Source: a virus
Length of the DNA stretch: 22,250 bases
IMG/VR virus record: IMGVR_UViG_3300005548_000040
Span: 1-22,250 of that record
Direction: 5' to 3' (one strand)
The position numbers and the translations under genes are program-made. Position 1 is the first letter of the stretch. Every line of letters starts with the position of its first letter. The notes beneath the pieces are model-generated. The model ran no database searches and was not told the DNA's origin. It saw only the letters and a program-made list of their open reading frames with translations. Below are positions 2,775 through 22,250 of the stretch, one piece after another.

Positions 2775-3074
2775 CTTCGGGTACCAGCCCTTCGCTTCCT
2801 GCTCATGGACATAGTGACGCTCGACTTGGCGCATCCTGTCCGAGGGGAAGAACGTGATCTCGAAGTGGCGAATTGCGGGGATGAAATCGCACGTCCAGCG
2901 GTTTGATACGCAGTCCGGTTCCTGAATGCAACTGAGGCTGGTCTCGCCGCTGCGTCCCGGGACCTCGAGCGGGCGCCCCCACATCACGGACTTCACCGCG
3001 ATGCGTTCAGGGCGCTTCGATCCATCAGCGATCGAAGGTGGTACGTGTCGCGGCTTGATAACAGTGTCGGTCAT
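2766..3074 (-). CDS. Hypothetical phage protein, last gene of leftward operon
   Basis: This encodes 102 residues with no recognised family. The N-terminal third is basic and Pro-rich, and two Cys flank the middle (SCIQEPDCV, then WTCDF). The ATG at 3074 overlaps the stop of the acetyltransferase gene by 4 bases, which fixes the start. Its stop lies inside the end of the oppositely oriented lipoprotein gene, with a 9-base overlap, so the leftward early operon and the rightward packaging genes collide here with no room for a terminator between them. The coupling and clean codon use support a real gene. Confidence 0.6.
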   Translation of the reverse strand: MTDTVIKPRHVPPSIADGSKRPERIAVKSVMWGRPLEVPGRSGETSLSCIQEPDCVSNRWTCDFIPAIRHFEITFFPSDRMRQVERHYVHEQEAKGWYPKLV

Positions 3075-3508
3075 CGTCGATATCCTTGCCCTTCTGGAAA
3101 CTTCAAGATGTTGTATTGGTGCTGAGCGTGCGGAATCTTGCGCTCGAGGTCTACGACCTTTTGCGTCTTGAACGCGTAGTCAAACGGCAATCGCGGGTTG
3201 ATGTTGAGTGCAGCGAACAGCTTCGTGGCTATCCCTCGGCGACGGTATGGCGCCTTGACGTTGACGTAGAACACGAGTGGCGGTCGGACGCTGACATCGC
3301 CGGCGATGAAGCCGAGGAGGAGCTGGTCCTCGGCCACGAACGTCGCGCAGTTGGGCCTATCAAGATGCGCAGCGAACTCGTTCCAGAACAACTTGTACAT
3401 GCGATCGAACGCGACCGGTGGACACCACGGCGACTCGCGAAACGAGTCGATCCACGTCGACAGAATGAAGACGCGGTCTTCTGGTGTGGCCGGACGACAC
3501 ACGATCAC
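3071..3508 (-). CDS. GNAT-family N-acetyltransferase
   Basis: A 145-residue protein has the Gcn5-related acetyltransferase layout. An N-terminal strand and helix (VRPATPEDR style, here CRPATPEDRVFIL) is followed by a central strand FYVNVKAPYRRRGIA, in which R89-A94 matches motif A (R/Q-x-x-G-x-G/A), the acetyl-CoA pyrophosphate loop. GNAT proteins of this length are common beside phage terminase genes. The substrate is unknown and may be a host or phage protein or a small molecule. The start is a GTG at 3508 that overlaps the upstream stop. The C-terminal part lacks a clear motif B signature, so the acetyl-acceptor side is not predictable. Confidence 0.72.
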   Translation of the reverse strand: MIVCRPATPEDRVFILSTWIDSFRESPWCPPVAFDRMYKLFWNEFAAHLDRPNCATFVAEDQLLLGFIAGDVSVRPPLVFYVNVKAPYRRRGIATKLFAALNINPRLPFDYAFKTQKVVDLERKIPHAQHQYNILKFPEGQGYRR

Positions 3509-4357: not shown

Positions 4358-4794
4358 GATTCGCCAGCTCCTTTGTCATCGACAAACTTCGGTCCATCTT
4401 CCGTCGCGATAAACGCTCGCCTCGGCCATTCGCACGTCGGCTTGCTGTCATGGCATACAAAGCTGCGCTCGTTGAGGTCGATCGCTCGCATCGGCTGTCT
4501 GCATGTCGCGCAGCGATTGCCAACGGCCATGTGAAACGCATCAGGACCAGCGGCAGCCGTGCATTTCATGACTTTCGCAACCGATTTGATTTCGTAGTCG
4601 ATCAGCTCGTCGGCCGCCTCATCATCCTCGATTGAAGACGTCATGCCGGAGCTGAGCAGAGCTGAGCCATACACACCCTCATGAAAGAGCATGAACTCAG
4701 TGCCGAAGTCACTGATGACGATCTTGCTAAGCTTCACGCCGTGCTCAGCGACAACCGCGGACCATTCATTGAACACGCTGCGATATTTCATCAT
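4354..4794 (-). CDS. Hypothetical protein with C-terminal zinc knuckle
   Basis: A 146-residue protein from ATG 4794, which overlaps the stop of the HNH gene (ATGATGA). Longer starts at 4812 and 4821 are possible. The N-terminal part is an acidic alpha/beta region. The C-terminus has Cys residues spaced as a zinc ribbon, with CATCRQP followed about 20 residues later by C-H and C-E-W (FVCHDSKPTCEW). The family was not recognised. By context it is an accessory early protein. Confidence 0.58.
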   Translation of the reverse strand: MMKYRSVFNEWSAVVAEHGVKLSKIVISDFGTEFMLFHEGVYGSALLSSGMTSSIEDDEAADELIDYEIKSVAKVMKCTAAAGPDAFHMAVGNRCATCRQPMRAIDLNERSFVCHDSKPTCEWPRRAFIATEDGPKFVDDKGAGES

Positions 4795-5159
4795 CTCTTG
4801 CTTCTCTGACATTCCCTGCACAATCTACCACCTTCCGGTGTGACCATTGCGTCTTTCATATCGTGACCTCGTGGGCATGTCGCAATCCGCAACCGCTTTC
4901 CCCAGCACTTCCTCAACTCATTCTCCTGCTTCGTTACGGCCTCGAGATGCTCTGCGTTCACGCACAGCACGCGTCGACACAGATGGTCCACGACCTGTCC
5001 ATCCGGCACACGACCGTGCGCAGCTTCGTACGTGAGCTTGTACGCATTCACCGGCGTTCTGCCGCGCCACACAATCGGCCTGCCGTTGTTGCCCAGCTTG
5101 CCGTTCCAGATGTGACAGCCATAGATGGCGTCGACGTCGTAGGAGTCGAGCTGGCTCAT
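4791..5159 (-). CDS. HNH endonuclease (HNH_3-like, zinc-bound)
   Basis: This is a 122-residue nuclease. The first segment has the C-x-I/V-W-x-G pattern seen at the N-terminus of many phage HNH proteins (GCHIWNG, residues 14-20), then a strand NAYKLTYEAAHG. The HNH core follows: H59 in VVDHLC, N68 in CVNAEHL and H71, with flanking Cys 61 and 66. A C-terminal zinc knuckle comes next, C95-P-R-G-H99 and C114-x2-C117, which would assist DNA binding. Such proteins cut DNA as homing or packaging-associated nucleases. The gene overlaps both neighbours, and these are intact. A free-standing homing role is inferred from its isolated position among unrelated genes, not shown. Confidence 0.8.
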   Translation of the reverse strand: MSQLDSYDVDAIYGCHIWNGKLGNNGRPIVWRGRTPVNAYKLTYEAAHGRVPDGQVVDHLCRRVLCVNAEHLEAVTKQENELRKCWGKRLRIATCPRGHDMKDAMVTPEGGRLCRECQRSKR

Positions 5160-7000: not shown

Positions 7001-7482
7001 CCCTGCTCCCTGCGGACGGTGTCCGCGAACATGCCGACGGTGATTGGCTCGATGCGGAGCGTCCACGTCTTGCGCTTGCCGCGAGGGCCAGTCTTGCTGA
7101 AGCTCCAGATTTCGAGTCGGGCTCCGGCTTCGAGCCATTGCTGTGCACGAGGCTCGGCGAGGATCTTGGCGCGACGGGCAGCATGCGACGCACCGGCGCA
7201 GGCTTGGATGCCAACAATGACACCCGGACGAAATGTGTTCTGCGTCAGACATGACGGGCACGTAAACGAACCGTCGCCGAACGTCGTCGCGTACGGCCGT
7301 TTGAGAACGCAGCACACGCCACCGATGTCCTCGTATTTTGGCGTTAGCGCCACGACGTCGATCACGCCGAACAGGTCAATCCGCCGGCGCGAGAACGACT
7401 GCCAATGCTCGACGACTTGACGCGTCCAACCGCGACGCTTCAGCTCCGCGAGGGTTCGTTGGGTCGGCGTTGTCTTAGCCAC
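6997..7482 (-). CDS. PD-(D/E)XK-like phage nuclease with inserted zinc knuckle
   Basis: This is a 161-residue protein. The N-terminal helix and strand (TQRTLAELKRRGWTRQVVEHW) and the block R-R-I-D-L-F-G-V-I-D-V-V-A-L at residues 33-46 match small phage proteins built like restriction-type nucleases, where the Asp of DLFGxxD (D42 here) is the first metal ligand. The later G91-I-Q-A block and the C-terminal ARLEIWSFSK strands also fit. Between them, at residues 57-78, an extra segment carries C57-C58 and C75-x2-C78, a zinc-knuckle-like insertion. Substrate and partner are unknown; processing of recombination or replication intermediates is likely by family. GTG 7482 overlaps the preceding gene by 8 bases. 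Confidence 0.6.
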   Translation of the reverse strand: MAKTTPTQRTLAELKRRGWTRQVVEHWQSFSRRRIDLFGVIDVVALTPKYEDIGGVCCVLKRPYATTFGDGSFTCPSCLTQNTFRPGVIVGIQACAGASHAARRAKILAEPRAQQWLEAGARLEIWSFSKTGPRGKRKTWTLRIEPITVGMFADTVRREQG

Positions 7483-8014
7483 GACGCGGACTCCAAAGCC
7501 TCGCGAGCACTGCCTTGCTCGGTCGCTGATTGCGGCGCTGTGTTTTGTAATCCGCCCAGCGGCAGTTTCCAGGTTCGTAATTGCCGTTTGGATCGATGCG
7601 ATCGATCGTTGTTCCATCTGGCCGCGGTCCCATGTCGGTCAGAAAGTCTTCGAACGATCCAAGCCACCGCTCGCAGACCGTGATACCGCGACCGCCGTAA
7701 TAGTCCCACTGGCTAGCGTTTGGGTTGGTGCAGCGATTAGCCATCGCTTGCCACGTTCTGTATTCGCGAGATTTGGGGCCAGTGGCATGGCCATGCGTCG
7801 TCGCCCTTCTGCCTCTCTGATCGTTGGCGCACGCCGGGCATGTCTTGGTTCTGCCCTTCGCGACGTCGTAAGCGTATGTCGTGAAAACATCGCCACATTC
7901 ACACGCACAAACTATGCGCCGATTACGACTGGCGCCCCGTTTCGGGCCTTCGGCAATTATGCGAAGTGAACCGATAACCGCTCCTGGCCTGACCTCGACT
8001 GAAGGTTTAGCCAT
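7475..8014 (-). CDS. HNH-like protein with N-terminal zinc ribbon (putative homing-type endonuclease)
   Basis: This encodes 179 residues. The N-terminal domain begins with a G-x-x-I-G-x-L-x-I-I strand pattern and a zinc ribbon: C36-x-C-x-C40-G and C59-x2-C62. The C-terminal domain is the conserved block Y-G-G-R-G-I-T-V-C-x-R-W at 106-117, [17 protein letters not shown] at 136-141 and N-Y-E-P-G-N-C-R-W-A at 145-154. This block is widespread in phage proteins annotated as HNH or homing-type endonucleases. The same block occurs in the 16803-17387 gene on the other strand. The gene overlaps the methyltransferase upstream by 8 bases and the nuclease downstream by 8 bases, and both neighbours are intact. 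Catalytic activity is inferred from the family. Confidence 0.72.
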   Translation of the reverse strand: MAKPSVEVRPGAVIGSLRIIAEGPKRGASRNRRIVCACECGDVFTTYAYDVAKGRTKTCPACANDQRGRRATTHGHATGPKSREYRTWQAMANRCTNPNASQWDYYGGRGITVCERWLGSFEDFLTDMGPRPDGTTIDRIDPNGNYEPGNCRWADYKTQRRNQRPSKAVLARLWSPRRG

Positions 8015-9794: not shown

Positions 9795-10708
9795 AGTGCT
9801 TTCTCCTCGAGCAAGTCATGGCGTTCGGCTTCCTCGGCCTCGCGGACGCGCTGCAGCTGCCAGCCGAGCAGATCGCCAGCGCGGGTGTCGTTGCCGACCG
9901 CCTGCCTCGACGGTGCAGCCACCTGGTCAAAGCGCGATGCGAACGTGAGGAAATCCCACGGCATCGGCGGAAACTTCGGCGGCGACGTCGTGAGCACGCC
10001 GATGCGCCGGATGATTTCCTCGACCGGATGCCGACCAAGCAGCCCCTTGAGCTGCTTCCCGGTCTTGCCGTTCCAGGTGGGCTTGGCCCCGTTCGCTGCG
10101 GTCGCGAAGTACGACTCGAACGCGTCCGTGACTTGCCGGGTGGACGAAAGCGAATCGAGCTGGGTCGTGAGCTGGCGCGCGGTCCCGCGAGGGACGCGCG
10201 GATTCTCTTCCTGATCGTGTTCGTGTTCCTGATCGTGTTCCTGATCCTGATCTTGTGTGAAACCCCTTGGGATAGGGTATCGGATGGGTTCAGGAAACCC
10301 CTTGGCAAACAGCTTATCCCAGGTTTTGCAAGCAATCTTGAGTGATTGCCAAAGCTCGTGCTTGAGGTTCGATTCGGGAATGTCATCCCAAATCTTGGAC
10401 ATTCCGATGATGGCTTTTGGCCCCGCTACGGACTGGTACTTGAGCCCGTTCTTGAGCCACAGAAGCTTGCCTTCGCGGGCCACAGCAAACCCCTTGGCAA
10501 CCAGTTCCGCATACCCTATCTGATACCGTTTCAGGGTCCAGCCGAGCTCGTCAGCGAGCGCGACCTCGCTGGCCACAATCACGCCAGGGATGGGCTTCGT
10601 GAACGACGTCGTGAGCAGGAACAGCCACAGCATGCGGCCGTCATCGCTCAACGATAGGAACTTGCGATCGCTCCAGATGCGCTGGTCGACCGGACGATAC
10701 TTCGCCAC
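9791..10708 (-). CDS. Phage replication initiator / replisome organizer-like protein
   Basis: This encodes 305 residues. The N-terminus (KYRPVDQRIWSDRKF, then LSDDGRMLWLFLLT) is the winged-helix type opening of phage O-like and DnaD-like initiators: one or two wHTH domains to about residue 110, with K-x-L-x-W-L-K-N-G-L-K-Y at about 80-91. A low-complexity linker of Asp, Gln, Glu and His at about 150-167 follows, encoded by a tandem DNA repeat. A C-terminal helical domain (about 185-275) would bind the helicase loader. It should recognise the phage origin and open it. The origin itself is not identified; the A/T-poor repeat in the linker could be part of it, as in lambda. GTG 10708 follows GGAGG and shares a base with the upstream TAG. 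Confidence 0.75.
   Translation of the reverse strand: MAKYRPVDQRIWSDRKFLSLSDDGRMLWLFLLTTSFTKPIPGVIVASEVALADELGWTLKRYQIGYAELVAKGFAVAREGKLLWLKNGLKYQSVAGPKAIIGMSKIWDDIPESNLKHELWQSLKIACKTWDKLFAKGFPEPIRYPIPRGFTQDQDQEHDQEHEHDQEENPRVPRGTARQLTTQLDSLSSTRQVTDAFESYFATAANGAKPTWNGKTGKQLKGLLGRHPVEEIIRRIGVLTTSPPKFPPMPWDFLTFASRFDQVAAPSRQAVGNDTRAGDLLGWQLQRVREAEEAERHDLLEEKAL
10208..10257. repeat. Imperfect 6/12-bp tandem repeat in initiator linker
   Basis: The unit CTGATCGTGTTC occurs at 10211-10222 and 10229-10240 with partial units (GTGTTC, CTGATC) around them. In the gene it encodes the Asp/Gln/Glu/His linker. Units are multiples of three, so copy changes keep the frame. Initiator genes of lambdoid phages carry the origin iterons inside the O gene, so these repeats could be iterons, but no adjacent A/T-rich stretch is visible. 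Confidence 0.6.
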
Positions 10709-11256
10709 TACACGTCCTCCAGCTGATCAACCTCGATCACCGTCGGCTCCGGCTCGCTTGACCTGTACAGCGTCTCGCCGAGACGGCGGATGAAGTCCTG
10801 TTCCGACTCCGCGCAGTCGATGGCGAACTGCTCTAATGCGCGCTGGAACCCGTCGGTTCGAGGGGCTGGATTCGAACCAGCAAGCCCAACAGACCGCGAC
10901 GGCGAGAGGCTCGAGCACTCATCCGGCGCGCTGTTGTTAGGCAGCCCGTCATCGGGGCCGCGTCTACCACTTCCGCCACCCTCGAGAATCGTCGCCGAGG
11001 CCGCAGGACTTGAACCCGCATCTTTCCGCTTTGGACGCGGACGCTCTACCGATTGAGCTAGACCCCGATTGTTCTGTCGCATCCGCTCCAGCTCGCACCC
11101 ACCGCACCGCTCGTTCTCCGGCGGGTCCGCGCTGATCGTGTACTCGTCGTCGGCGTCCCAGCGGCCGCGGCAGGCTGTGACCACCGATGCGTTGATGTCA
11201 TCGACGATGCACCACAGGCGAGCGGCGACGTGGCGAGCCCAGAGAGGAGCGGTCAC
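10708..11256 (-). CDS. Hypothetical ORF that reads through two RNA genes (possibly interrupted)
   Basis: The frame is open for 182 residues. Residues 1-63 look like a real small protein (a basic N-terminus, then PENERCGGCELERMR with a CxxC), and the GTG at 11256 overlaps the upstream stop. The last ~47 residues also look genuine (EQFAIDCAESEQDFIRRLGE, acidic end), and the TAG shares a base with the replication gene start. Between them the frame passes through tRNA-Trp and the tRNA-like element, giving the low-quality reads typical of translated tRNA (GSSPAAS, GSNPAP). No ATG, GTG or TTG start lies in frame between the RNA genes and the last segment. Either an RNA cassette entered one gene, or two gene ends remain. 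Its function is unknown. Confidence 0.5.
   Translation of the reverse strand: MTAPLWARHVAARLWCIVDDINASVVTACRGRWDADDEYTISADPPENERCGGCELERMRQNNRGLAQSVERPRPKRKDAGSSPAASATILEGGGSGRRGPDDGLPNNSAPDECSSLSPSRSVGLAGSNPAPRTDGFQRALEQFAIDCAESEQDFIRRLGETLYRSSEPEPTVIEVDQLEDV
10857..10985 (-). ncRNA. 129-nt tRNA-like RNA with oversized variable arm
   Basis: The reverse strand folds as a cloverleaf. The 7-bp acceptor stem is perfect (TCGAGGG, bases 10985-10979, with CCCTCGA, 10864-10858), followed by discriminator A. The D arm reads GCGGAAGTGGTAGACGC, as in tRNA-Leu. The T arm is GCTGG-TTCGAAT-CCAGC (10881-10865). The anticodon-like stem is GGCCC/GGGCT with the loop CGATGAC, which has G where U33 is expected. 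Some 60 bases then form a long arm: CAACAG pairs with CTGTTG and CGCG with CGCG, with a further inner hairpin. Normal long-variable-arm tRNAs are 85-95 nt. It could be a divergent tRNA, a tRNA mimic or a decayed gene. It starts 9 bases after tRNA-Trp. Confidence 0.5.
10995..11067 (-). tRNA. trnW: tRNA-Trp (anticodon CCA)
   Basis: A 73-nt cloverleaf is visible on the reverse strand: acceptor CGGGGTC (11067-11061) pairs with GGCCTCG (11002-10996) with two G-T pairs, discriminator G. The D arm is GCTC-AATCGGTA-GAGC. The anticodon arm is TCCGC-GTCCAAA-GCGGA, so the anticodon is CCA, and the T arm is GCGGG-TTCAAGT-CCTGC. Discriminator G agrees with bacterial tRNA-Trp. CCA is not encoded. It lies in the leftward early operon and would be cut out of the mRNA, so processing should split the operon transcript. 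A phage tRNA-Trp may help translate Trp-rich phage genes. Confidence 0.85.
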
Positions 11257-16062: not shown

Positions 16063-16806
16063 ATGGACAAGCACAATGCGAGCACCGCGCTCGCCATCAT
16101 CCCTTCCTCGCTAGAAGACGTTCGCGCGCTCGCCAAGAGCGTTGCTGGCTCGATCCTTCTCCCCGACGCCCTCAAGCGCGAGCCCGACCTCATCATGGCC
16201 GTGATGGCTGGGCTCGAGCTCGGCCTGCCGCCGATGGCATCGCTGCGCGGTGTGAACGTCATCAAGGGCAAGCCGTCGCTGACCGCTGCGACCATGGTGG
16301 CCGTCGTGCTTGGCCGCGGTGTCGCCGAATACTTCGAGTGTGTCGACGACCAGCCCGAATCGGTCACGTACGAGACGAAGCGCCACGGCGGCAAGAATCC
16401 GCAGCGCGCGACGTGGACAATGGCCGATGCCAAGCGCGCTGGGCTCGGCGGTGACAACTGGAGCAAGTACCCGTCGGACATGCTCCACGCGCGATGCATG
16501 GCTCGGCTCGCTCGCCGGACATACCCCGACCTCCTCGCCGGCATCTACACGCCGGACGAGATCGACCACGAATCGTATGCGGCCGACGAAACCCGAAGCC
16601 CCGCCGTGGAAGCGATCGACGCGGAAATCATCAGCGAGGCCAAGTCCGACGACGCGACACTCGCCGCAATCGATTCGGCCGCGACGCTTGATGACTTGAC
16701 CGCGCTCTCGCAGTCACTGGCCAAGCTGCCCGAGGGGGTCAAGGCGGAGGCTCGTAGGCGCTACGGCGACCGCAAGCGGCAGCTCCAGCAGGTGAGCGCG
16801 CCGTGA
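16063..16806 (+). CDS. recT: RecT-family single-strand annealing protein
   Basis: This encodes 247 residues. The block [18 protein letters not shown] at about 45-62 and the following [17 protein letters not shown] at 66-82 are close to the RecT signature (GLELGLxPxxAL, then GKPxLxxxxMxAL). These are the conserved core of oligomeric annealases that bind 3' overhangs and pair homologous strands. The C-terminal 60 residues are acidic and helical and probably bind the exonuclease or host SSB. The Shine-Dalgarno GGAG is near 16052. The partner exonuclease lies two genes downstream, with an HNH-like gene between. Confidence 0.85.
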
Positions 16807-17387
16807 AGCCAGAGTGGCCATGCGCTGTCTGCGGCGCGATGTTCCGTGCGTATCCATCAGAGATCAAACGCGGCCGCAAGTACTGCTCGAAGGACTGCGA
16901 CGATGACCGCAAGATCAAGCACGGGCTCTCAAAGAGAGGGCAGGTATCCAAGCTGTTCTGGGTCTGGCGAGCAATGATCCACCGCTGCGAGAATCCAAAG
17001 GATGCGCGTTATCCGAACTACGGCGCGCGCGGAATCACCGTTTGCGACCGCTGGCATGACCTGTCTAACTTTCTGGCGGATATGGGCCCTCGCCCCGACG
17101 GCCTGACGATCGAGCGGATTGACAACTCGAAAGGATACTCGCCGGATAACTGCAGATGGGCGACGTATCAGGAGCAGCTCAGAAATACGCGTCGCTCTAT
17201 ACTGACCCGCGACGCCGTTCAGGAGATTCACGGTCGATATGAGCACGGTGAAGCTCCAGTCTCAATATCCGAGAGAATGGGTATTCGTCAGCACACTGTT
17301 CTCGTGGTGCTGCGAGGTGATAAATGGCCAGAACTCGCAACGTCTGGGTACGTCGGTCGTGGTCCATACAAGCTGAGGGCCGCATGA
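16803..17387 (+). CDS. HNH-like putative homing endonuclease with C-terminal HTH
   Basis: This encodes 194 residues. A zinc finger at the N-terminus (C7-x2-C10, C28-x3-C32) is followed by the block [13 protein letters not shown] at 72-84, [17 protein letters not shown] at 102-107 and Y-S-P-D-N-C-R-W-A at 112-120. This central block is the one in the 7475-8014 protein on the other strand. The C-terminal 60 residues form a probable HTH ([16 protein letters not shown], then [19 protein letters not shown]), resembling the targeting part of the 19342 gene. It sits between recT and its exonuclease, overlapping both by 4 bases (GTG 16803, and stop on ATG 17384). Confidence 0.75.
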
Positions 17388-20769: not shown

Positions 20770-21044
20770 GGCTGCATCCGGCCGACATCGAAGCAATTGC
20801 GGATGCGCTTGAACGGCGACTCCGCTCCGGACAATCGTCACCGTTGGAAACGGCGGTCGTCGATGGAGACGACCCATGGACGAAAGACCCTATGGACCTT
20901 ACAAGCACGGAGACCTCTTCCGAGTCCACTGCGTTAGAGGACGCGGAAAAACTCGCTCGACTCGATATCGCACGTTTGCGACGCGGGCTGAAGCCGATGC
21001 CTATATCGCGACGTTCACGATCGAGGGGAAGGGCGTCACGCTGA
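20766..21044 (+). CDS. Small ORF overlapping the integrase start
   Basis: This frame runs 92 residues from GTG 20766, which overlaps the upstream TGA, and it extends about 170 bases into the integrase gene in another frame. The first 35 residues (LHPADIEAIADALERRL) look like a real helical protein and resemble the small proteins placed just before integrases. The remainder, in the overlap, is basic and of low quality. Either it is a short excisionase-like gene that in truth ends by frameshift, or only the first part matters. The exact extent is uncertain. Confidence 0.4.
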   Translation: MRLHPADIEAIADALERRLRSGQSSPLETAVVDGDDPWTKDPMDLTSTETSSESTALEDAEKLARLDIARLRRGLKPMPISRRSRSRGRASR

Positions 21045-21910
21045 TGCAGGCCGTCGACAAGTTTCTCGACTGGAAGCGCGACGCCAAGGGCTGCGTTGGC
21101 CACACGATCGAGAACTACGAGCACCGGCTTTGGCGGCTGCTGGGCCTGCCCGAGAACGGCAACCGCTCCGTGCGCTACGTCGAGCGTCGCGGGAATGAGC
21201 TGTACCAGGCATCGGTCTACGGCGCCGGCGACACGCACATCAACGGGCTCAACGTCGGTCGAATGTGGGGCGCATACTGCGTCAAGCAGAAGCTGCTCCG
21301 CACGAACCCATTCGCCGAGGTCGAGGCGCAGGGCAAACGTCGCAAGGGCTCGACCAAGTCACGGCTCACTGTGAACGAGTCGAGGCTGCTCGAGGCGTAC
21401 TGCTTCGAGCATGGCGGACCGGAGTGCGTCCTGACGTACGGCTACATGATGCTAGGCAAGCGGGCCTCCGAGCTCGCACGCGTGCTCGTTCGCGACTTGG
21501 ACGACGACGGGTGGCTGCTGCGCATCAACGAAGCCAAGACCGAGGCGAGTGTGGGAACCGTGCCGCTCAACGCGGCGCTGCGCGAGATGCTGCTGGCATT
21601 GACGAAGGATCGGCCGGCGACTGCATCGATCTTTCTCGACTCGTACGGCGATCCGATGTCGCGCTGGGCGGCTCGGGACCGGGTGCGCACGGTGACCAAG
21701 GCTGCGATCGGCCGGGCCGTCCCTCCGCAGGAGCTGCGCCGGACGTTCACGGACAACGCGCAACGGCAAGGCGTGGCGCTCAAGACGATCGCCGAGATGA
21801 CCGGCCACACGTCCACGGCGGTCACGACGCGCAGCTACATGGCGCGCGAGGTTGTCGATGCAGCGGCGGTGGAGAGAAACTTCACGGTGATGCAGGGAGG
21901 GAAGAGATGA
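20876..21910 (+). CDS. int: Tyrosine-type phage integrase
   Basis: This encodes 344 residues. The N-terminal arm-binding part (GPYKHGDLFRVHCVRGRGK, then FATRAEADAYI) is of the AP2-like kind of phage integrases, followed by a core-binding helical domain (about 55-155). The catalytic residues are R196 in G-K-R-A-S-E-L, K221 in N-E-A-K-T-E, R288 in Q-E-L-R-R-T-F, H311 in M-T-G-H-T-S and nucleophile Y321 in T-R-S-Y-M. The usual His of H-x-x-R is Gln 285. The Shine-Dalgarno GGAG is at about 20864. It cuts and joins attP to attB, here probably the nearby tRNA-Leu gene. It is the second last gene before the tRNA. Confidence 0.9.
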   Translation: MDERPYGPYKHGDLFRVHCVRGRGKTRSTRYRTFATRAEADAYIATFTIEGKGVTLMQAVDKFLDWKRDAKGCVGHTIENYEHRLWRLLGLPENGNRSVRYVERRGNELYQASVYGAGDTHINGLNVGRMWGAYCVKQKLLRTNPFAEVEAQGKRRKGSTKSRLTVNESRLLEAYCFEHGGPECVLTYGYMMLGKRASELARVLVRDLDDDGWLLRINEAKTEASVGTVPLNAALREMLLALTKDRPATASIFLDSYGDPMSRWAARDRVRTVTKAAIGRAVPPQELRRTFTDNAQRQGVALKTIAEMTGHTSTAVTTRSYMAREVVDAAAVERNFTVMQGGKR

Positions 21911-22161: not shown

Positions 22162-22168
22162 CTAGGCG

Positions 22169-22215
22169 TGCGATCGGGGGGACTCGAACCCCCACGGTGT
22201 TACCCACTGGCACCT
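22169..22215. other. Predicted attachment-site region (tRNA-Leu 3' half)
   Basis: Phages that use tRNA genes usually carry a copy of the tRNA 3' half as the att core, so the core should lie within this stretch (anticodon to discriminator). Only one copy is in the window, so it cannot be delimited. The other copy should lie at the far prophage end, to the left of base 1. Confidence 0.35.
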
Positions 22216-22250
22216 GAGACCAGCGCGTCTACCAATTCCGCCACGATCGC
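22169..22250 (-). tRNA. trnL: tRNA-Leu (anticodon CAG), probable integration target
   Basis: An 82-nt tRNA-Leu is visible on the reverse strand: acceptor GCGATCG with CGATCGC, discriminator A, D arm GCGGAATTGGTAGACGC, anticodon arm CTGGT-CTCAGGT-GCCAG (anticodon CAG), a short variable arm and T arm GGGGG-TTCGAGT-CCCCC. CCA is not encoded. It is a complete gene ending at the last base of the window. It has the normal form of a host tRNA, and its 3' end faces the integrase, as expected when a phage inserts into the 3' end and restores the gene. Confidence 0.92.

Follow-up and report, generated by a model that had tools for sequence, protein, structure and literature searches.

The tRNA content of phages is usually taken as codon supply, and tRNA-shaped RNAs that do not decode are missed or misassigned by tRNA finders. 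The locus analyzed here, in a 22,250-base IMG/VR virus record (hereafter the window, by which we mean this whole stretch of DNA), raises the question of what a phage RNA can be that combines the acceptor stem, D arm, and T arm of a tRNA with a loop unsuited to decoding. We address this question by dissecting the element itself and its genomic neighborhood, by a survey of similar elements in viral and bacterial contigs, and by weighing the explanations that these data allow.

Results

Anatomy of the Element

The RNA gene (129 nt including the discriminator A73; positions 10857–10985) lies on the minus strand, a point on which the first-pass annotation had been silent. Folding the minus strand from 10985 to 10857 gives, at minimum energy, a cloverleaf in which the 5' acceptor strand TCGAGGG (10979–10985) forms 7/7 pairs with CCCTCGA (10858–10864; 10857–10864 together with A73) and the D stem comprises 3 bp. 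Between the two acceptor strands follow, all on the minus strand, a leucine-type D arm carrying A14, A15, G18 G19, and A20a (10960–10976, read from the sequence); an anticodon-like hairpin of exactly 17 nt, GGCCC-CGATGAC-GGGCT (10943–10959); a giant variable arm that begins right behind this hairpin, is closed by GCCTAACA/TGTTGGGC in the fold, and stops exactly 2 nt 5' of the T stem (10884–10942); the dinucleotide TT (10882–10883), the second T of which is position 48 (U48, pairing with A15); and the T arm GCTGG-TTCGAAT-CCAGC (10865–10881), which as GCUGG-UUCGAAU-CCAGC folds with 5/5 pairs. The sequence CC at 10855–10856 stands directly after A73.

Thus, the tRNA-like acceptor (7 pairs), D arm, and T arm that had been claimed for this locus are all present in the minus-strand fold, and the anticodon-like loop CGATGAC, described as lacking U33, is indeed seen as CGAUGAC on the 5-bp stem GGCCC/GGGCU with a G at position 33. 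The paired arm proposed for a variable region of about 60 bases stands in part: the region measures 61 nt (within a whole body of 78 nt) and the CGCG/CGCG pairing is there, whereas the CAACAG/CUGUUG helix gives way to a favored outer helix of 8 bp, GCCUAACA/UGUUGGGC, in the minimum-energy fold.

The acceptor, T-arm, and D-arm matches of the element exceed chance, and its D arm is identical at 20/21 positions to that of the tRNA-Leu at the end of the window. The fold energy is unremarkable (z of −1.94, with 10/200 shuffles equally stable), and the argument is therefore based on the tRNA-like anatomy and the relatives described below. For the middle of the window copy, hairpin-plus-arm and pseudoknot come out equally strong by computation (−26.8 vs. 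−26.2 kcal/mol), so that either may be the actual fold.

Standard tools do not pick out this element. ARAGORN and Rfam (RF00005, E ≤ 1) called only a tRNA-Trp and a tRNA-Leu in the window, and ARAGORN with introns allowed forced onto the element a tRNA-Gly with a mismatch and a 47-nt intron. Rfam has no family dedicated to the window element, to eight related loci, or to a similar element in a Leuconostoc phage (see below). Nor was a tmRNA detected in the window by ARAGORN or by a tmRNA profile search, with neither a tag reading frame nor a profile match.

Genomic Context

An ordinary tRNA-Trp (CCA; 10994–11067, minus strand; called by ARAGORN and Rfam) lies immediately upstream of the tRNA-like RNA, and a 182-aa ORF (10708–11256, minus strand) encloses both RNA genes in frame. 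Both ends of this ORF look coding, and its third-position GC is 0.84 before the RNA genes, 0.54 within them, and 0.86 after them. Its start codon shares bases with the upstream stop (GTGA) and its stop codon with the following start (TAGTG), which makes it translationally coupled on both sides. Either part of the protein is translated from the RNA genes, or a single transcript is contested by ribosomes and RNA-processing enzymes. A consensus scan of this locus found no sigma-70-type promoter and no promoter-like or terminator-like site.

Elsewhere, the window encodes a terminase, a DnaD-like helicase loader, a RecT-like match below Pfam's cutoff, and, within its 22 kb, three HNH endonuclease genes (4791–5159 and 7475–8014 on the minus strand, 16803–17387 on the plus strand). 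At the contig end, an integrase gene (20876–21910, plus strand) adjoins the tRNA-Leu (CAG; 22168–22250, minus strand; ARAGORN, Rfam), probably marking the attachment site of an integrated prophage. Searches of viral contigs by replication protein or terminase returned no relatives of this phage, and a search of cultured phages with the terminase gave 17 distant records, all below 60% identity and reaching at most 37% of the query among the matches listed. No relative with the same acceptor, TCGAGGG, was found either; since both a same-acceptor relative and a related phage are missing, family properties are carried over to the window copy by anatomy.

A Family of Elements With Shared Ends and Unrelated Middles

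Viral contigs were scanned for Leu D-loops lying 55–85 nt from a T-loop, and the hits, together with the eight related loci, amounted to at least 131 rows. At least 103 of the 131 rows have ≥ 6/7 acceptor pairs and 5/5 T-arm pairs, and of these T-stem pairs the scan pattern prescribes no more than the last two; the conservation of GGTAGACGC and of the T loop is a product of the search pattern. The same test applied to bacterial genome contigs was passed by 29/116 rows, some of which, on visual inspection, are ordinary or mis-assembled tRNAs. Among the matches listed, 76 distinct members preselected for 7/7 acceptor pairs and 5/5 T pairs carry 29 different acceptor stems, and 512/532 of the pairs are Watson–Crick, i.e., the acceptors covary.

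The acceptor AGTCAGG is found in 43/76 of the preselected members, and scans for it with shorter and longer middles yielded a set of 196 distinct middles of 22–112 nt, as compared with bodies of mostly 30–36 nt in class II long-arm controls and 78 nt in the window. Pattern scans of viral contigs bring up many RNAs whose tRNA ends agree and whose middles are unrelated. The bodies have no universal sequence motif, only a weak TAAGTCC; GATGAC was rejected as a family motif, being the feature by which its eight loci had been chosen and not general in the viral scan set. Some relatives pass RF00005, and short-bodied ones receive scattered ARAGORN isotypes: 102 genes with an agtcagg start were distributed over nearly every isotype and tRNA-???, a scatter expected if the isotype label is arbitrary. 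Blastn searches for the AGTCAGG type in 50,697 cultured-phage records showed none in the best 60 of 753 and the best 25 of 805 records, and searches of open-access PMC papers gave, among the matches listed, no description of a non-decoding Leu-type tRNA-like family.

Several individual loci deserve a separate mention. The cultured Leuconostoc phage phiLM33_01 contains an unannotated candidate (~2999–3105, plus strand) with an acceptor, a D arm, and a divergent T loop, and with a tRNA directly 3' of it. Four loci in bacterial contigs (L139, L149, L164, and L224) combine Leu-type ends and a normal-looking variable arm with a very long hairpin where the anticodon arm would be, and these hairpins may be introns or belong to a different RNA. 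Near-identical middles occur under two different acceptors, GTCAAGG and AGTCAGG, and one element is shared by a viral contig and a Paenibacillus chromosome contig (pairs L103/L106 and L108/L140). Finally, at locus L009 a tRNA-like element is followed, on its own strand and after ~110 nt, by a freshwater-1 RNA (RF02979; 3895–4171, plus strand).

Absence of a Decoding Arm and Structure of the Middle

A canonical anticodon arm, defined by ≥ 4/5 pairs, a 7-nt loop, U33, and a purine at 37, is possible in 4/196 middles vs. 6.3 in shuffles and 14/14 ordinary long-arm (Leu/Ser) tRNAs. The window element fails this test (G33), and in some members the helix adjacent to the T arm starts 5–10 nt after the D stem, so that an anticodon arm cannot fit. 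The suggestion that the RNA is a tRNA mimic and not a translating tRNA is supported by a large family that retains the top half of a tRNA without a decoding arm.

In 38/115 clusters vs. 13.8 expected (18/73 vs. 7.0 in the first set), and in the window too, the middle contains a helix that stops, on its 3' side, exactly 2 nt ahead of the T stem. Two-helix arrangements at p ≤ 0.05 were counted in 120 clusters as crossing (pseudoknot, 34), anticodon-hairpin (24), and nested (29), with 6 expected; for middles of ≤ 56 nt the respective counts are 20/59, 6/59, and 13/59. The crossing helix is weak once the first helix is fixed (9/74 at p ≤ 0.05). Covariation was scored in tight groups only, larger clusters being chained by shared 8-mers and misaligned, which bears on their balance of broken cells to double changes (109 vs. 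23 for helix 1 and 135 vs. 40 for helix 2). In the L256 group, three pairs show double changes, all in one helix, with a covariation score matched by 0/500 shuffles. The pair L288/L319 shows both crossing helices with three double changes and no broken pairs, in a comparison of two sequences only that was equaled by 67/500 shuffles.

These data suggest that several architectures share one frame, the window copy being predicted by its minimum-energy fold to be of the hairpin-plus-giant-arm kind. The "giant variable arm" of the first-pass annotation fits the predicted fold of the window copy and does not extend to many relatives, which have a pseudoknot or one large arm as their middle. The same annotation had named decay without compensatory changes among homologues as the finding that would speak against its proposal; at the family level we see covarying acceptors and double changes in the middle helices.

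Leucine Identity Positions

Positions left free by the search pattern are also retained. In the 76 preselected members (among the matches listed), A14A15 occurs in 74/76, U48 in 71/76, A73 in 61/76, and C74 in 71/76, with A73 being less constant outside AGTC-type acceptors (19/30). The window sequence carries A73, A14, A15–U48, G18G19, and A20a. In PMC9976931, the leucine set of E. coli is given as A73, A15–U48, G18G19, A20a, and D–T loop contacts, and E. coli tRNA-Leu deprived of both the anticodon arm and the variable arm is described as still leucylated; the window element has the complete set. As it retains positions read by bacterial LeuRS, the window RNA is probably leucylatable; the proposed role as a synthetase substrate finds its support in these positions.

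Expression Context, Body Replacement, and Alternative Explanations

Neighboring tRNAs were counted up to 3 kb from 98 members: 98 share the strand of the element and none has the opposite orientation (such a neighbor being present for 32/98 members). C74 is seen in 340/345 elements and, in the same phages, in 447/461 ordinary tRNAs, and a T at position −1 precedes 298/345 elements vs. 301/461 ordinary tRNAs. The box TAnnTTTG, which we take to be the Bacteroidota −7 box, is found within 60 nt upstream of 33/317 elements with a peak at 10–14 nt, as compared with 8–14 in other stretches of equal length.

One alternative explanation is transcript punctuation, with the tRNA-like tops as processing signals between phage genes and the body as filler, in the way that tRNAs punctuate mitochondrial transcripts. 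Upstream stops within 20 nt are indeed more common for AGTCAGG-type elements (98/313) than for ordinary tRNAs of the same loci (55/433), as are downstream ATG codons within 30 nt (91/315 vs. 47/436), and up to nine elements alternate with small ORFs over 12.5 kb in one locus. However, filler would not retain a positioned helix, compensatory changes, and U48/A73; the TAnnTTTG box 10–19 nt upstream of ~20/317 elements looks as if some of them start their own transcript; and the window RNA is located within a coupled ORF and not in a gap between genes. We therefore consider punctuation rather unlikely.

At a few sites the body itself has been replaced. With any D arm allowed, the AGTCAGG acceptor and T arm define 433 elements with 337 distinct bodies on 245 locus-strands. 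Orthologous sites were required to have both flanks aligned over ≥ 200 nt and reaching the element, and identity was computed on middles alone, since the shared D arm inflates it. Where flanks are 90–95% identical, middles are less than 50% identical in 13/18 element pairs vs. 0/28 ordinary tRNAs at the same loci, and among independent sites with any flank divergence an unrelated middle occurs in 3/6 vs. 1/31 ordinary tRNAs; these counts are small, the pairs are not independent, and 73/99 element pairs are uninformative, as their flanks hardly differ and their middles are the same or nearly so. The most telling site (L281, L277, L022, L365, L265, and L346) has the same flanks around four different middles. 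Body exchange is shown here for elements of other phages. Two of the arrays (L400 and L257) combine one acceptor and T arm with several types of D arm, and they have in common a small ORF with DPW(Y/H)VKLRRW.

Constant ends with fast-changing bodies, and several different bodies per phage, would also suit a regulatory small RNA built on a tRNA handle, whose body pairs with RNA or binds a protein while the ends only stabilize it. A precedent is tRNAOther of Bacillus cereus, a pseudo-tRNA reported to have regulatory effects (PMC3399842). Against this, bodies had limited matches beyond the masked elements (64 queries at E ≤ 0.01), and several of the 15 matches listed are family copies missed by the mask, so that we judge this explanation unlikely. 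Decay of a tRNA-Leu into a functionless relic with an insertion is very unlikely: the window copy is the only one found with its acceptor type and has a D arm like that of tRNA-Leu, yet its acceptor pairs, T-arm pairs, and tertiary positions are all intact, and the RNA type recurs widely with covarying acceptors. An ordinary tRNA-Leu with a small intron, as hinted at by the 47-nt intron that ARAGORN can force and by intron-like extended hairpins in some bacterial contigs, can practically be set aside, because removal of one segment restores a canonical tRNA-Leu in 1/168 bodies longer than 40 nt (0.07 in shuffles) and never in the window.

Discussion

The reading that we prefer, with a probability of roughly 60%, is that the window RNA is a non-decoding, tRNA-processed, probably leucylatable phage RNA derived from tRNA-Leu and equipped with a fast-changing folded body. 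Such an RNA would be transcribed together with neighboring genes and the upstream tRNA-Trp, excised by the enzymes of tRNA maturation (RNase P, 3' trimming, CCA completion), folded into a tRNA elbow, and possibly leucylated via the retained LeuRS identity positions. The folded body would replace the anticodon and variable arms, as a hairpin plus giant arm here and often as an H-type pseudoknot in relatives; changing fast, and at times swapped whole between constant ends, it would be the functional part. Displayed on a stable tRNA-like handle, it may mimic a tRNA or serve as a decoy, engaging host factors that bind tRNA or act in defense. A decoy or mimic appears to be the likeliest role since bodies are replaced and multiplied, and a decoy for readers of the elbow or acceptor is more likely than one for anticodon nucleases because the anticodon loop is gone. 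Taken by itself, the decoy role is put forward tentatively, with the odds somewhat against it.

A comparison with known systems reveals partial likenesses. With bacterial tRNA-Leu, and class II tRNAs in general, the family shares a Leu-type D arm, a T arm, A73, A15–U48, and an arm in the variable region, and it differs by the absence of a decoding loop, with the anticodon hairpin often lacking or drawn into a pseudoknot. In tmRNA, the top half of a tRNA is likewise joined to pseudoknots in place of the anticodon arm, but the window element is far shorter and has identity positions for Leu, not Ala. In artificial tRNA scaffolds, a foreign RNA body replaces the anticodon arm on a stable tRNA, whereas the phage elements are natural and evolve by body replacement. 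The rnaC and rnaD genes of phage T4 (species 1 and 2 RNAs) lie next to tRNA genes and encode, according to PMC12685909, small stable RNAs to which no function has been assigned, and rnaC resembles the family in its T arm, GGTTCGAATCC, and large hairpin; both were rejected as members, as they have no Leu D arm, the rnaC acceptor reaches at best 5/7 pairs, and rnaD is devoid of the T-arm motif. The B. cereus tRNAOther is a tRNA-like RNA outside translation as well, and according to PMC3399842 it is set apart by a Trp anticodon, by being reported in the B. cereus group only, and by being part of a larger transcript.

Overall, the middles of a few elements are replaced while the adjacent DNA stays 90–96% identical, and it is a serious possibility, placed at a little under even odds, that these elements are tRNA-scaffolded cassettes, a previously undescribed class of phage RNA with constant, possibly aminoacylatable ends and a hypervariable folded body swapped by recombination, sometimes in arrays of up to nine different bodies. 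If so, they would constitute a diversity-generating RNA system, probably engaged in an arms race with host tRNA-binding or defense proteins, and the window RNA would be a GC-rich single-copy member of it. Should host factors charge or bind these RNAs, the latter would represent a new tool of phage–host conflict and a natural counterpart of the tRNA scaffold of biotechnology. For phage genomics, the finding means that part of what is counted as "tRNA-Leu" or "tRNA-???" genes in phages consists of other RNAs.
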